Notes under the pieces: generated by a model | What the model was told of the DNA's origin: nothing | The model's database searches: none | Seen by the model: the letters and a program-made list of their open reading frames with translations, nothing else | Shown here: positions 1 to 16,384 of the stretch, in pieces | Layout: each line of letters starts with the position of its first letter | How positions within the stretch are numbered: the first letter of the stretch is position 1 | NCBI GenBank assembly: GCA_019510125.1 | Contig: JAEKKX010000006.1 | Coordinates: 372,001 to 436,000, forward strand | Source: Lysobacterales bacterium | Lineage (GTDB): Bacteria; Pseudomonadota; Gammaproteobacteria; Xanthomonadales; Xanthomonadaceae | Direction of reading: 5' to 3' | Length of the DNA: 64,000 nt | Made by a program: the position numbers and the translations under genes

Positions 1-701
1 AACACGTTGGCCATCCACTGCAGCCCGAACCGCGCGGAGAGGTAGACCACCGTCCAGCCGCGCAGCACCGAGACCGCCACCTGGATCACGACCAGCATCG
101 CGAAACCGATGCCGAGCACGGTCAGCAGCGACGCGTCGGCCGAGACCAGCACCTGGTCCACGACCCACTGCATGTAGAACGGGGTCGCGAGCACGAATAC
201 CTGCAGCGCGAGCGACAGCGTCAGCAGCAGCGCCAGCGCGCGCCAGAACCCGCGCACGGGCCCGGTCAGCTTGCGCAGGCTCACCGCTTCGCGGCGCGCG
301 TCCGGGGTGAATTCCTGGCCGGGCTCCAGTTCCAGCGCGACGCCGGTGAAGTGGCGCGAGACCTCGGCGATCGGCAGCGTCCGTCGCCCGAGCGCGGGGT
401 CGAGCACGACCACGCTGTCGCGGCGCACACTTTCGAGGACCACGAAATGGTTGAGGTCCCAGTGCAGGATCGCGGGCGTGTCCAGCCGCGACAGGCCTTC
501 CAGTTCCAGGCGCAGGGCGCGACCGTGCAGGCCGAGCTTGCCGGCGATGTCGATCAACTGGCTCAGGCGCAGGCCCTTGAGCGACATCGGGAACCGGCGC
601 CGCATCTCCGGCATGCCGATCTCCAGCCCGTGGTGCGCGGCGACCATCGCCAGGCACGCGAGCCCGCACTCGGAGGCCTCGGTCTGCACGACGCCCCGCA
701 T
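1..701 (-). CDS. C39-peptidase ABC exporter of bacteriocin/RiPP type (partial, C-terminus beyond left edge)
   Basis: About 233 N-terminal residues are visible. Residues 1-130 form a C39 cysteine peptidase domain. The motif QTEASECGLACLAM carries the catalytic Cys, HWDLNHFVVL the His, and VLDPALGRR the Asp. A basic linker follows, then the first transmembrane helices of the exporter domain from about residue 150. Such proteins cut a double-glycine leader from a peptide and export the core across the inner membrane. The ATPase domain lies outside the window. An in-frame TGA, which is also the stop of the ATP-grasp gene, lies 57 nt upstream, and the ATG at 701 is the only plausible start, though it has no clear ribosome-binding site. 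The adjacent ligase and HlyD adaptor indicate a dedicated peptide secretion system. Confidence 0.9.
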   Translation of the reverse strand, partial: MRGVVQTEASECGLACLAMVAAHHGLEIGMPEMRRRFPMSLKGLRLSQLIDIAGKLGLHGRALRLELEGLSRLDTPAILHWDLNHFVVLESVRRDSVVVLDPALGRRTLPIAEVSRHFTGVALELEPGQEFTPDARREAVSLRKLTGPVRGFWRALALLLTLSLALQVFVLATPFYMQWVVDQVLVSADASLLTVLGIGFAMLVVIQVAVSVLRGWTVVYLSARFGLQWMANV

Positions 702-755
702 CAGGCGGCCCCGCGGCGGGCGGGCGCGGCGACGGCCGCGGGCAGGGAGGTCGCG

Positions 756-1796
756 TCAGGCATGGGCGGATTCCGCCTCCGCCGTCGGCGTCGTGGCCGT
801 CGCGGTCGAGAACAGCCTGCGCCGGAACGCGGCCGCGAACTCGCGGGTGAGCGCGCCGTCCACGATCTCGTCCAGCCAGCCCCAGGCGCCGTCCTGGTTG
901 CATTCCAGGAACCAGGCGTCGCCGTCGGGATCGACCACGATGTCGACGCTGCCGGAGAACAGGCCCATCGCCGCCATGTAGGCGCGGAGCCGGTCCACCA
1001 GCGCGTTGTCGATGCCGCAGGGCTTGTAGTCGAGCAGGTGGACGCCCTTGCGCCAGTCGACGGTCGAGGACTGCAGCGCCTGCGAATCGATCCGGAACGC
1101 GTGCGGCTTGCCGTCGATCATCACCACCCGCAGTTCGTGGTCCTTGCGGATCTCGTGCTGGAAGACGTGCGGGCAGTAGCCGATGTCGCCGTCCTCGGCG
1201 CCGGACAGCGCCGCTTCGGAGACGCGCATGGTCATGATGTTGAAGGGCACGCTGCCGCCGGAGGGACCGGGCGCGACCTTGCCCGCGCTGAGCGACTTGA
1301 GGATCAGCCCGGACGGCGCGTCGCGCATCAGCGCCAGCGCGGCCGCCTTGTCGGTGGTGACCAGGGTCATCGGCACCTTCAGGCCGACGCCGGACGCGAC
1401 GATCTGCTGGTAGGGCTTGAGCAGGCAGCGCTTGGCGTCGAACGAATTGACCACCCGGTCGCCGTACAGGCAGGAGACGAGCTGGTACAGCGCGCGCCAT
1501 TCGCGCGCCACGAAGCTGGTGACGCTCGGGTCGTCGCCTTTGACGTAGACCGTGGTGCCCGGAATGATCTTGCTGCGATCCCAGATCAGCAGCCGGTCGG
1601 GCAGCGGGACGCCGCCGACCGACAGCCCGGTCCTGCCGGCGCCGTCGACGGTCAGCGAAACCCGGACGTCGTCGCGATAGTCGAGCACTTCGACCCGGAG
1701 GTCGCCGCCGCGCGCCATCTCGTCGGCCACGCGCTCGACGTGCGGGTCGGCCCGGGTGCCCAGGATCACGAAGGCGTGGTCGCGCTGGCTGTTCAT
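756..1796 (-). CDS. Graspetide (microviridin)-type ATP-grasp ligase
   Basis: A 346-residue protein resembling the MvdC/MvdD family, whose members form ester or amide side-chain crosslinks in RiPP precursors. The central segment FQHEIRKDHELRVVMIDGKP, followed by RIDSQ and DWR, matches the family pattern of a basic/acidic ATP-grasp strand. The C-terminal ECNQDGAWGWLDE is the metal/ATP-binding strand, close to the E-x-N-x-x-G-x-W-x-W-L pattern of MvdD-like enzymes. I chose the ATG at 1796 because GAGGA lies just upstream; the ATG at 1820 would add 8 residues. It stands between an HlyD adaptor and a C39 exporter, which fits peptide maturation rather than RimK or glutathione roles. No precursor peptide is visible in the window, so the substrate is unknown. 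Confidence 0.75.
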   Translation of the reverse strand: MNSQRDHAFVILGTRADPHVERVADEMARGGDLRVEVLDYRDDVRVSLTVDGAGRTGLSVGGVPLPDRLLIWDRSKIIPGTTVYVKGDDPSVTSFVAREWRALYQLVSCLYGDRVVNSFDAKRCLLKPYQQIVASGVGLKVPMTLVTTDKAAALALMRDAPSGLILKSLSAGKVAPGPSGGSVPFNIMTMRVSEAALSGAEDGDIGYCPHVFQHEIRKDHELRVVMIDGKPHAFRIDSQALQSSTVDWRKGVHLLDYKPCGIDNALVDRLRAYMAAMGLFSGSVDIVVDPDGDAWFLECNQDGAWGWLDEIVDGALTREFAAAFRRRLFSTATATTPTAEAESAHA

Positions 1797-1902
1797 TCCG
1801 TTGTCCTCGTCATGGTCCATTCAAAGCGTTGCCCGGCCCGCGCGCGCAGATGGCAGCGACGCGGCGACGCGGCGTGCGGGGGGCGTCCGGTGCGCGCGGA
1901 CG

Positions 1903-3162
1903 TCAGTCACCGAGGTTCCCCGACAGCGACTGCAGCGGATCGAGCACCCATTCCCAGAGCATCCGGCGCTCGCCCAGGATGTCCGCCTCCAGCAGCATGC
2001 CGGCGCGCAGGCGCTGCCGGGCGCCCTTGATCGCGATGTCCTGGCGATCGATGTCCACGCTCACCAGGTAGTACGGCTCGTCCTCGCCGCCGCCGGGGAG
2101 GCCGGACGCGACCGAACGATCGATCACGCTGCGGCCCACCTGCGCGACGCGGCCGCGGTGGTGGCCGAATTTCTGGTACGGGTAGGCCTGGTAGCGGATC
2201 AGCACCGGGTCGCCCTCGTGGATGAAGCCGATCGCGCGGCTGGGCACCAGCAACTGCGCCTGCAGCCTGCCGTCGCCGGGGATTACGCTCATCACCGCCT
2301 GGCCTTCGCGGACCGGTTCGCCGGCCTTGAGCACCTGGCCGGCGATCCCGCCCGCCACCGGCGCGACCAGCGCGATCGCGCTCGCGGCGTGGGTCTGCAC
2401 GGTTTCCTGCTGCAGCTCGGCGCGCTCGCGCGCGAAATCGGCGCGGGTGCGCGCCAGCACCGAGCGGGTTTCCTCGCGGCGCTGGCGCAGGTCCGCGATC
2501 TGGCGGCCGAAGTCGATCGCCTGCCGCTGCATCTGCCGCAGCGCGAGGGTCTGCTCGATCACCGCGCCCTGCTGCTGCTTGACCTGCAGCTCGCCGACGT
2601 AGCGCTGCTCGAGCAGCGCTTCGTAGCGGCCGAGCGCTTCCCTGGCGAGCGCGACCTGCTGTTGGCGCAGGGAAATCTCGCCGTCGAGCTGCGCCGCCTG
2701 GCTGGAGAGGAACGCGAGCTGCTGGTCGAGGCCCTGCAACTGCGAGGACACTTCGGCATCGCGCGCGTGGCCGGAGGATTCGAGGCTTTCCGCGCGCGTG
2801 CGCAGCCGTGCGCGCAGGGCGGTCGAGGTGTCGCCGTCCTCCGGCGTGGCGCGCGGCACCTGCACGATCGCGAGCACGTCGCCGGCGGCGACCCGGCCGC
2901 CTTCGGCGACGTTCACCCGCGCCAGCGTGCCGGTCGCGGGCGAGACCACGGTGGCGAGGCCGCGCACCGGCACCAGTTGGCCGGTCACCCGGTTGCGCCG
3001 GGTGTAGCTGCCGAACACGAGGAACAGGATCACCGCCAGCGCGATCGCCGCGGCGCAGGCCGCGAGCACCCAGGTGCGCACGGGCTGGATCAGCGAGATC
3101 TGTCCGAACCGGCCGTCCTTCTGCTCATCCAGCACTTCTTGTCGGAAGAGCGATTGCGTCAC
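1903..3162 (-). CDS. HlyD-family periplasmic adaptor of the peptide exporter
   Basis: A 419-residue membrane-fusion protein. A short cytoplasmic N-terminus is followed by one transmembrane helix (about residues 29-50, TWVLAACAAAIALAVILFLV). Next come a lipoyl/beta-barrel half, a long alpha-helical coiled-coil hairpin rich in Gln and Arg (about 115-270), and the second lipoyl and beta-barrel half. It should link the C39 ABC exporter to an outer-membrane channel, like CvaA or LcnD adaptors; no TolC gene is in view. The start is GTG at 3162, with AGGGAGCGA upstream. It is the first gene of the three-gene set, and an in-frame ATG does not occur near the conserved N-terminus. Function is secure at family level; the cargo is inferred from the neighbours. 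Confidence 0.88.
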   Translation of the reverse strand: MTQSLFRQEVLDEQKDGRFGQISLIQPVRTWVLAACAAAIALAVILFLVFGSYTRRNRVTGQLVPVRGLATVVSPATGTLARVNVAEGGRVAAGDVLAIVQVPRATPEDGDTSTALRARLRTRAESLESSGHARDAEVSSQLQGLDQQLAFLSSQAAQLDGEISLRQQQVALAREALGRYEALLEQRYVGELQVKQQQGAVIEQTLALRQMQRQAIDFGRQIADLRQRREETRSVLARTRADFARERAELQQETVQTHAASAIALVAPVAGGIAGQVLKAGEPVREGQAVMSVIPGDGRLQAQLLVPSRAIGFIHEGDPVLIRYQAYPYQKFGHHRGRVAQVGRSVIDRSVASGLPGGGEDEPYYLVSVDIDRQDIAIKGARQRLRAGMLLEADILGERRMLWEWVLDPLQSLSGNLGD

Positions 3163-3547: not shown

Positions 3548-4765
3548 GTGAAAGGACGCCAGCCGCCGGCTGACGATCGCGCATCCGCAATCGCCCGGCC
3601 GGACCAGGGTCTCGCGTCGGCCGTCGCGTCGGCCCTCACGCTGGGGGTCTCGCTGGCGACCGTCGCGAGCGGCGTCGCGCGGGCGGACCCGCTGGCCGAC
3701 GGCGCGGACCCGCTGGCGCACAACCGTCCCTGGCAGGCGCTGGTGGAAATGGGCGAAACACCCGCCAATCCGCAGATGGCCGCCCAGGTGGCGACCTTCC
3801 TGGGCCGGGAGCGGGCCGCCTGCGCCGCTGCCCCGTCCCGCGTCCCGCGCCTGCCGCCGGACGCCGAGTATCGCGATGCGCTGGACGTGATCGACGGCCT
3901 GGCCCGCGACGCGCGCGTGGTGATGCTCAACGAATCGCACGACAGGCGCGCCCACCGGGTGTTCCTCGGTCGCCTGATCGAACGGCTGGATGCGCTCGGT
4001 TTCGATGCGCTCGCGGCGGAGACCTTCGCCCCCGCCGCGCCGGCCACGCTGGCGGACGGCGTGCCCGACGCGGCCACCGGCTTCTACACCGCCGATCCCG
4101 CCTTCGCGGACGCGCTGCGGCGCGCGCACGCGCTGGGCTGGCAGTTCGTGCCCTACGAATCGCAGGTCGGCATGGCGCGCGAGACCCGCGAAACCGCGCA
4201 GGCCGAGGCCCTGGCCGCGTGGATCGAGGCGCATCCCGGTCGCCGGCTGCTGGTGTACGCCGGCGGCTCGCACATTTCCCGGGACCCGGCCGAAGGCTGG
4301 ATGGCGGCGCGATTCGTCGCCCGCACCGGGATCGTGCCGCTGGCGATCGCGCAGGGCGCGACCGCGTGCCCGGACAGCGCCGGCGACTGGCCGATCGACG
4401 CGCCGTCGCCGGTCGTGGCGATGCGCGGCGACGCGCCGATGCGTCCCGGGCCGGTCGATCTGGTCGTGCTGCATCCGCCTTCGGCCGTCGCCGCGGCCGA
4501 GGCCGCGCGCGGCGCGCGGGTGGCGGTGTGCGTGGCCGCGCGCGACGAAGCGACGCTGCTGCGCGCGTTCGGCGACGGCGAGGACGATCAGGCGATCGCG
4601 CGCGACCAGGCGGAGGTGCCCGCCGCGGCGACGCGGGTCGAACTGCGCCTGCCGCCGGGGCGCTACCGGATCGCCCGGGAAGATGCGCGCTCACTGGTGA
4701 CCCTGGGCCGGGTGACGGTGGACGAGGCCAACGCCGGCGGCTGCCTGCGCGTCGATCCGCTCTGA
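3548..4765 (+). CDS. Secreted EreA/ChaN-like protein of unknown substrate
   Basis: A 405-residue protein with an N-terminal export signal (hydrophobic stretch about residues 24-45, ending GVARA). The mature part contains VVMLNESHDRRAHRVFLGRL followed by FDALAAETF. This resembles the N-terminal catalytic or ligand-binding core of the EreA/ChaN (erythromycin-esterase and haem-binding) fold, where a Glu-x-x-His motif sits after a beta strand. A second matching segment, LLVYAGGSHISRD, lies near residue 236. The start is GTG at 3548, with GGAGGA 7 nt upstream. Members range from esterases to haem-binding lipoproteins, so no activity is assigned. It is a single gene, read away from the peptide-export locus and converging on dusB. 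Confidence 0.65.
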   Translation: MKGRQPPADDRASAIARPDQGLASAVASALTLGVSLATVASGVARADPLADGADPLAHNRPWQALVEMGETPANPQMAAQVATFLGRERAACAAAPSRVPRLPPDAEYRDALDVIDGLARDARVVMLNESHDRRAHRVFLGRLIERLDALGFDALAAETFAPAAPATLADGVPDAATGFYTADPAFADALRRAHALGWQFVPYESQVGMARETRETAQAEALAAWIEAHPGRRLLVYAGGSHISRDPAEGWMAARFVARTGIVPLAIAQGATACPDSAGDWPIDAPSPVVAMRGDAPMRPGPVDLVVLHPPSAVAAAEAARGARVAVCVAARDEATLLRAFGDGEDDQAIARDQAEVPAAATRVELRLPPGRYRIAREDARSLVTLGRVTVDEANAGGCLRVDPL

Positions 4766-15436: not shown

Positions 15437-16384
15437 ATGGGTCCGTTCATCGGTTTCGTGCTCGTCGTCGTCGGCGTCATCATCTTCTTCAAGGCCGTGC
15501 GCATGGTGCCGCAGGGCTACGAGTGGACGGTCGAGCGGTTCGGCAAGTACACCCACACCATGACCCCGGGGCTGCACTTCCTGATCCCGATCTTTTACGG
15601 GGTGGGCCGCAAGATCAACATGATGGAACAGGTGATGGACGTCCCCAGCCAGGACGTGATCACCAAGGACAACGCCGTGGTCAAGGTCGACGGCGTGGTC
15701 TACTTCCAGGTGCTGGACGCGGCCAAGGCCGCCTACGAGGTCGCCCAGCTCGAGGTCGCCATCCTCAACCTGGTGATGACCAACATCCGCACCGCGATCG
15801 GTTCGATGGACCTCGACGAGTCGCTGTCCAAGCGCGACGAGATCAACGCCAAGGTGCTGACCGCGGTCGACCACGCCACCCATCCGTGGGGGGTGAAGGT
15901 CAACCGCATCGAGCTCAAGGACATCCAGCCGCCGCGCGACCTGGTCGCCTCGATGCAGCAGCAGAAGATGGCCGAGCAGAACAAGCGCGCCGCGATCCTC
16001 GAGGCCGAGGGCGTGCGCCAGTCGGCGGTGCTCCGCGCCGAGGGCGAGAAGCAGTCGGCGATCCTGGAGGCCGACGGCAAGCGCGAGGCCGCGTTCCGCG
16101 AGGCCGAGGCCCGCGAGCGCCTCGCGCAGGCCGAGGCCAAGGCGACGCAGATGGTGTCCGACGCCATCGCCAGCGGCAACGTCAACGCCATCAACTACTT
16201 CATCGCCCAGAAGTACATCGAGGCGTTCAAGGCCCTGGCCGAGGCGCCGAACCAGAAGTTCATCATGATGCCGATGGAGTCCAGCGGCGTGCTCGGCTCG
16301 CTCGCCGGCATCACCGAACTGGCGAAGGAGGCGCTGGCCCACCAGCAGGCCGGCAAGCCGCCGTCGATGCCGCGCAAGGACTGA
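15437..16384 (+). CDS. SPFH/stomatin-like membrane protein (QmcA type)
   Basis: A 315-residue protein anchored by an N-terminal helix (GPFIGFVLVVVGVIIFF). It is followed by an SPFH/Band-7 domain (about 25-190) with PQGYEWTVERFGKYTHTMTP and KVDGVVYFQVLDAAKAAYEV. A long charged helix rich in Glu, Ala and Lys (about 190-260) mediates oligomerisation. Bacterial QmcA-type proteins form large rings in the inner membrane and often pair with NfeD proteins and the FtsH protease. GGGAGGG precedes the ATG at 15437. The NfeD gene starts 3 nt after its stop, giving the classic SPFH-NfeD operon. Earlier in-frame codons belong to the opposite-strand sigma gene. Confidence 0.93.
   Translation: MGPFIGFVLVVVGVIIFFKAVRMVPQGYEWTVERFGKYTHTMTPGLHFLIPIFYGVGRKINMMEQVMDVPSQDVITKDNAVVKVDGVVYFQVLDAAKAAYEVAQLEVAILNLVMTNIRTAIGSMDLDESLSKRDEINAKVLTAVDHATHPWGVKVNRIELKDIQPPRDLVASMQQQKMAEQNKRAAILEAEGVRQSAVLRAEGEKQSAILEADGKREAAFREAEARERLAQAEAKATQMVSDAIASGNVNAINYFIAQKYIEAFKALAEAPNQKFIMMPMESSGVLGSLAGITELAKEALAHQQAGKPPSMPRKD

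Follow-up and report, generated by a model that had tools for sequence, protein, structure and literature searches.

A cassette of five genes at the edge of the window

The window analysed here is a stretch of 64,000 nucleotides from a Lysobacterales bacterium, starting at base 372001 of contig C44 (JAEKKX010000006.1). Its left end carries, consecutively on the minus strand, genes for a C39-peptidase ATP-binding cassette (ABC) exporter, an ATP-grasp ligase and an HlyD-type adaptor, all three at the places given in the original prediction, which had read them as a graspetide-type locus with its precursor gene beyond the left edge. A 67-amino acid (aa) open reading frame (ORF) corresponding to this precursor does occur about 1.5 kb outside the window, on its left flank (L009, whose base 16001 is window base 1). 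The cassette further includes a divergent gene absent from the original prediction. Its features are:

Window 1 to 701, minus strand: N-terminal part of the C39-peptidase ABC exporter (whole gene L009:14593-16701, 702 aa).
Window 756 to 1820, minus strand: graspetide-type ATP-grasp ligase, 354 aa, assigned from NCBIfam matches, solved sequences and its clade in the tree.
Window 1903 to 3162, minus strand: HlyD-type periplasmic adaptor, 419 aa, GTG start, assigned from TIGR01843 and PF13437.
Window 3548 to 4765, plus strand: divergent, predicted exported Tiki/ChaN/erythromycin-esterase-like hydrolase, 405 aa, with an invariant E-x-H...H, assigned from a PF04187 match under the cut-off, cassette conservation, alignment, a structural model and Foldseek.
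L009:14301-14504, minus strand, outside the window (window -1699 to -1496, taking L009:16000 as 0): precursor gene, 67 aa.

The window edge cuts the exporter gene, the remainder of which was recovered on L009. The exporter contains Peptidase_C39 (PF03412, E 2.8e-33), ABC_membrane (PF00664) and ABC_tran (PF00005) domains, all above Pfam cut-offs, and its best NCBIfam match is TIGR03796 (NHLM_micro_ABC1, E 1.8e-155, below its cut-off). The HlyD gene matches PF13437 above the Pfam cut-off and TIGR01843 below the NCBIfam one (E 4.6e-38).

The arrangement hydrolase, HlyD, ligase, exporter, precursor is common to the window's own genome and two relatives, L041 and L042 (the latter a contig of 8.2 kb only). 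When 30 kb of the own contig were compared with 18 kb of L041, ORFs of at least 100 aa outside the cassette gave no match at E 1e-15. The five genes form a complete graspetide cluster, very probably one for producing a small ring-shaped peptide, cross-linking and trimming it and passing it out of the cell. Graspetides are a known class; the cluster itself is real and complete. The genes and their families, the conservation of the precursor and the selection acting on it, and the joint conservation of the cassette are direct observations.

The precursor gene and its core

The precursor ORF (67 codons) lies on the same strand as the exporter, starts 88 bases after the exporter stop codon and has a ribosome-binding site, AAAGGAG, ahead of its ATG. 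It encodes a leader, MKPFVMKLHEQDHGELRELREHELEAVTGG, ending in GG, followed by the core RLSNVGLQPQEPIRLNTVTVTPNGDGGDDGCDDDWAW, the end of which reads TVTVTPNGDGGDDGCDDDWAW. It was reached by the very check that the original prediction had proposed, namely extending the sequence leftwards in search of a short ORF with a GG-type leader and a core rich in Thr/Ser/Lys and Asp/Glu. The double-glycine processing that had been announced also agrees with these sequences, as GG precedes the core and the exporter carries a C39 peptidase, so that cleavage at this point is predicted.

The same ORF follows the exporter in the two relatives (L041:11810-12010 and L042:6946-7146). The proportion of changed sites between the own gene and that of L041 is 0.104 for nonsynonymous and 0.448 for synonymous sites, and the corresponding values for L042 are 0.102 and 0.425. 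Because nonsynonymous change is thus about 0.10 against 0.42-0.45 for synonymous change in both comparisons, the ORF, as judged from its sequence, evolves as a protein gene under purifying selection. An intact homologous precursor is found in 10 of the 11 loci of the ligase clade described below (own, L051, L052, L053, L054, L055, L056, L058, L059 and L044); the lack of any conserved small ORF in relatives, which the original prediction had named as evidence against itself, was therefore not what we observed. As L053 holds four copies, there are 13 precursors in these 10 loci, and these make up the alignment used below, from which the eleventh locus, L057, is excluded. The four genes of L053 (L053:5555-6890, Lysobacter psychrotolerans) stand in tandem ahead of one ligase, and their cores vary mainly at the turn and just ahead of the last Asp.

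The precursor profile matches strongly (E below 1e-20; 8 copies) in only five of 297 genomes of the bacterial family, and the same five hold a clade ligase (E below 1e-80, the next ligase match being at E 3.9e-20). These eight copies helped to build the profile, and their scores are high by construction; the test lies in the other 292 genomes, which have neither a clade ligase nor a strong precursor match. Weaker profile matches (E 5e-4 to 6e-3) in six genomes were inspected and rejected as clade precursors, none having the core pattern TxTxT...DDGxD. Two are small GG ORFs near other ligases (L164, L165), three are other small ORFs of GG type (L163, L166, L168) and one locus shows nothing convincing (L167).

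As expected of a graspetide precursor, the gene next to the exporter encodes a leader and a core holding Thr donors and Asp acceptors. The common core pattern is TxTxT...DDGxD. Of the 13 alignment rows, 12 have Thr at position 47, 12 at position 49 and 12 at position 51, and the acceptor positions are Asp in 11 (Asp58), 12 (Asp59) and 13 (Asp62) rows. Position 48 is Val or Ile in 8/13 rows and position 50 in 10/13, while position 61 is Lys in three precursors; the own core has no Lys. The leader has P3 (12/13 rows) and F4 (13/13), then V, I or A, and ends with G29 (13/13) and G30 (12/13), the own precursor having GG. From this pattern, the core would consist of two strands joined by a turn, with at most three esters between Thr and Asp. 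The leader motif Phhx(1,2)h, reported for about half of graspetide precursors by Makarova et al. 2022 (PMC8939145), is matched strictly, in a by-eye reading, by the own precursor (PFVMKL) and three others (4/13).

Other cores from the same bacterial family were collected as small ORFs chosen by a composition filter beside other graspetide-type ligases. They fall into TTHATGPNGDDP.DP and near forms (L017, L022, L028, L029, L045), ...EIDxADNGDxIP (L019, L030, L032, L035, L036, L039) and A[VT]AGCTDP...WC (L023, L026, L046). Two of these loci belong to the own genome. L045:7157-8591 (C44, about 532.2-533.6 kb) encodes a second graspetide-type ligase with a precursor core, TTHATGPNGDDPADPG, that is nearly unchanged in the relatives L017, L022, L028 and L029; clusters of the L045 type are presumably thatisin-like. 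A third graspetide-type ligase lies at C4:56431-56985, with a small ORF of another type (L046:7626-7808, ATAGCTDPTRQGDYRYSTTLGRDNGAWC at its end), which is similar to ORFs of L023 and L026.

The ligase and its clade

In NCBIfam, the ligase matches TIGR04187 (E 1.4e-41), MvdC (5.3e-34), MvdD (3.7e-28) and grasp-with-spasm (1.5e-17), its assignment to graspetide ligases resting on the entries TIGR04187, TIGR04185 and TIGR04184. Because all of these matches lie below the curated cut-offs, we regard the ligase as a divergent member of the graspetide ligases. The graspetide-type character put forward in the original prediction stands. In Pfam, no match was obtained at E 0.1. Grouping with RimK or CphA, named beforehand as an outcome that would speak against a graspetide locus, did not occur: RimK is matched at E 0.068 only, compared with 1.4e-41 for TIGR04187, and CphA is absent from the five families matched at E<=0.1. 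A five-member profile of the ligase matched six solved sequences at E<=0.01, all of them ATP-grasp ligases, with 5ig8 as best match (6.4e-34), followed by 7m4s (AMdnB) and 7mgv (CdnC), the others being 5ig9, 9bou and 7drm. We take 5ig8 and 5ig9 to be microviridin-type ligases (MdnB/MdnC kin). By these profile comparisons, graspetide synthetases and not RimK are the closest kin of the ligase.

A pattern scan of one genome per species, over 84,980 species, yielded 438 ligase relatives, of which the best 80 were kept. Among these 80 are nine gammaproteobacterial loci (38-77% identity, E 4e-180 to 3e-70), followed by actinobacterial relatives with at most 32% identity and E 1e-19 or worse. We built a tree of the window ligase and 58 of 59 loci (30 of the best 80, 24 of 25 loci of the bacterial family, L044, L045, L046 and L150; L033 was left out), in which a branch with support 100/100 separates the window ligase and ten relatives, namely the nine loci and L044, from the rest; the tree has long branches, and wider placement in it is weak. 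Clade members come from Lysobacter, Oleiagrimonas, Stenotrophomonas, Alkalimonas and metagenome-assembled genomes (MAGs).

The clade is rare, being present in 5 of the 297 family genomes, and a rare set of related bacteria has the same cluster design. At E<=1e-30, 398 genomes of the order contain four ligase members (three strong, one weak), and 369 genomes of the class yield the own ligase as a strong match and a weak pair in G327. This pair (L156 and L157, G327:C335:18604-20215), from another gammaproteobacterial family, consists of two ligase-like frames side by side, both weakly related (E 8e-36 and 1e-31), one of which has an internal TAG. Fifty-five plasmid records matched, all with less than 60% identity; the best 15 of the 55 have 25-37% identity and include no clade member.

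The predicted exported hydrolase-like protein and the proposed pathway

The divergent gene is found in 8 of the 11 clade loci (own, L051, L052, L044, L055, L056, L057 and L058). Among the eight hydrolase-like proteins, five match PF04187 at E<=0.1, one matches Erythro_esteras (E 0.045) and one PEP_mutase (E 0.0046). All eight keep N128, E129, H131, R137, E158, R214, E215 and H242 (L051 being incomplete there). In hydrolases of the Tiki/ChaN/erythromycin-esterase superfamily, the active site is formed by an E-x-H...H pattern. In addition, all eight proteins have near the N-terminus a hydrophobic stretch, with a best Kyte-Doolittle mean over 11 residues of 1.89 to 2.40, which is read as a predicted signal peptide. 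A structural model of the 405-aa protein reached a mean predicted local distance difference test (pLDDT) of 77 and a predicted template modelling score (pTM) of 0.77, residues 1-58 being under 50. At E<=0.001, Foldseek gave eight matches in the PDB, comprising 5t09, five chains of 6a8j/6a7h and two signal recognition particle (SRP) GTPases. The best of these, 5t09, has E 3.3e-6 and a template modelling score of 0.60 to the target, and the 6a8j/6a7h chains have E 2e-4 to 3e-3. Because the unrelated SRP GTPases fall in the same E range as 6a8j/6a7h and the erythromycin esterase EreC (6xcq) comes only at rank 50 (E 0.039, probability 0.14), the match of the modelled fold to the superfamily is only moderate. 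Compared with solved sequences, a profile of these proteins matched only fluoroacetate dehalogenases, at E 0.21 at best and along some 41 positions, and these matches were taken as chance. We suggest that the protein hydrolyses or trims the exported peptide.

We propose, with a probability of about 85%, that the five genes are a graspetide biosynthetic cluster with a Thr-Asp ester product, a C39 cut, export and a periplasmic hydrolase step. The ligase would bind the precursor leader, phosphorylate the core Asp side chains with ATP and join them as esters to the Thr side chains of TVTVT. Two or three macrolactones would result, three (Thr47, Thr49 and Thr51 with Asp58, Asp59 and Asp62) being the likeliest number. 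The computed [M+H]+ of the unmodified 37-aa core is 4010.857, and one, two or three losses of water would lower it to 3992.847, 3974.836 or 3956.826. The C39 domain of the exporter (about residues 1-130) would then cleave after GG, and the ABC part and the HlyD adaptor would export the 37-aa product, with a TolC-like pore encoded elsewhere completing export. In the weakest step, the predicted exported Tiki/Ere-like protein might open the esters of the peptide, for self-protection or recycling, or make a last trimming cut. The macrolactone nature expected of the product makes an esterase role attractive; a trimming peptidase role fits as well.

A number of observations weigh against this proposal. 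The exporter is present in 8 of the 11 clade loci and HlyD in 7, and neither gene was seen in the flanks examined around L055 and L056. At the proposed ester positions, deviating residues occur in the precursors of L055 (Trp for Thr47, Ser for Asp58), L056 (Gly for Thr51) and L058 (Glu, Asn and Trp for Thr49, Asp58 and Asp59). In L057, which lies on a contig of 3.8 kb, the leader of a core-like ORF is interrupted. L057 and L058 are two related loci of one Pseudomonadales MAG, and in L057 the ligase and hydrolase ORFs are open despite the interrupted leader. The PF04187 match of the gene at 3548-4765 (E 2.4e-5) scores 24.9 bits, under the cut-off of 27.7; the gene was not found in three clade loci (L053, L054 and L059); and its homologues occur in 28 of the 297 family genomes, at 31 places. 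Of 12 regions around 13 such places, 11 (two of them, L151 and L153, short contigs) have no ligase, exporter or HlyD match, and one, L150, has all three.

These last points bear on a rival explanation, in which the Tiki/Ere-like gene stands beside the others by chance, being an independent periplasmic gene that takes no part in the pathway. Relatives carry ligase-free homologues, among them those of G171, G243 and G028 with 50-54% identity, and in the own lineage the gene is divergent and not co-transcribed. However, the cassette common to the own genome and L041 includes this gene and has different flanks in the two, and in L044, L055, L056, L057 and L058 the gene lies on the ligase strand and adjoins the ligase or precursor (between ligase and exporter in L044 and L058). 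Moreover, a split homologue occurs beside a different ligase and a weakly SPASM-like protein in L150, and the gene is present in 4 of the 5 clade genomes, compared with 24 of the 292 others (Fisher p 3e-4), although three of the four belong to one genus and are not independent. We consider a chance neighbour rather unlikely. As the gene occurs both beside and without ligases, it was recruited into graspetide cassettes and is not confined to them. The L150 locus (L150:4006-10959), from another genus, comprises an HlyD gene, the SPASM-like protein (TIGR04193, E 4e-4, far below the cut-off), the different graspetide ligase, the split Tiki/Ere-like ORF and a C39 exporter. Much less credible is a ligase that forms amide or other bonds, or that attaches amino acids to a peptide or protein in the manner of RimK, the small ORF not being its substrate. 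ATP-grasp superfamily ligases carry out many reactions, and the weak RimK match and the Lys at position 61 in 3 of the 13 precursors would suit such an activity, but the nearest families and solved sequences are graspetide ligases, the own core lacks Lys, the near-invariant donors are Thr, and the 5 of 297 genomes that hold the clade ligase are also those with the precursor.

The graspetide cluster proposed here could also belong to an already numbered group, or to branch 4 or precursor cluster 2716 of PMC8939145, with nothing new at group level, and we regard the odds of this as evenly balanced. That paper describes gammaproteobacterial branch 4/cluster 2716 loci that likewise hold a precursor, a ligase, a double-glycine peptidase and an erythromycin-esterase homologue, for which a role in modification or resistance is only suggested. 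The window clade may be the same family, as judged from gene content; however, branch 4 precursors are stated there to have mostly escaped prediction, and here they are clear in 10 of the 11 loci. The same paper lists double-glycine peptidase/ABC transporters and HlyD proteins among the commonest partners of graspetide ligases, while also stating that a peptidase is not typically encoded in graspetide loci, and the combination of an ATP-grasp ligase, a C39 exporter and HlyD is thus already known for graspetides. PMC13097080 counts 24 graspetide groups plus 19 new ones, with thatisin as group 16, and reports a high co-occurrence of NHLM-type transporters with eight groups (2, 8, 14, 16, 18, 20, 21 and 23). 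These groups share an ATP-grasp ligase and a peptidase-bearing NHLM-type exporter with the cluster proposed here, which may differ from them in its ligase clade and its TxTxT...DDGxD core. The thatisin-like clusters (L045, own genome) resemble the window in their GG leader, a Thr/Asp core with a PNGD stretch and the bacterial family; membership was rejected, as the window clade is separate (100/100), the core is not of the TTHATGPNGDDPADP type, and the L045 ligase sits elsewhere in the tree and is 28% identical to that of the window. Microviridin-type ligases are the closest solved sequences, but microviridins are described with two ligases in PMC9826346, compared with one here, and the window core is Thr/Asp without Lys. 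A group 19 graspetide from Lysobacter capsici, with at most three dehydrations, is reported in PMC9576775.

The undescribed graspetide family suggested in the original prediction is accordingly not established: the ligase clade and core were compared with, and are distinct from, the other graspetide loci seen in the same bacterial family. That the cluster is a not yet described group, with a TxTxT...DDGxD hairpin core and a dedicated periplasmic Tiki/Ere-like hydrolase opening its own ester rings, appears improbable to us. If true, graspetides would have a macrolactone-opening enzyme for self-protection or recycling, as erythromycin esterase opens the macrolide ring. Of all parts of the cassette, the recurrent, predicted exported hydrolase is of the greatest interest and most merits testing. 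Among the literature searched, "graspetide" and "erythromycin esterase" occur together in PMC8939145 only, and among the matches listed, no title or opening of an abstract dealt with an enzyme that opens graspetides or with graspetide immunity, which is no proof of absence. With the precursor, a finding that had consisted of enzymes only becomes a pathway that can be tested on a short, defined substrate, and 13 natural variants in 10 loci mark which Thr and Asp residues matter.

Two neighbouring regions deserve mention. The left neighbours of the cassette (L009:9299-13068) are, in a row, a 649-aa protein that matches nothing in Pfam, a ferritin-like protein (PF12902) and a DJ-1/PfpI protein, possibly another biosynthetic set. 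In the relative G204, an open stretch (L041:13000-13980) about 1 kb past the precursor has AMP-binding and weak condensation matches, resembling a non-ribosomal peptide synthetase.

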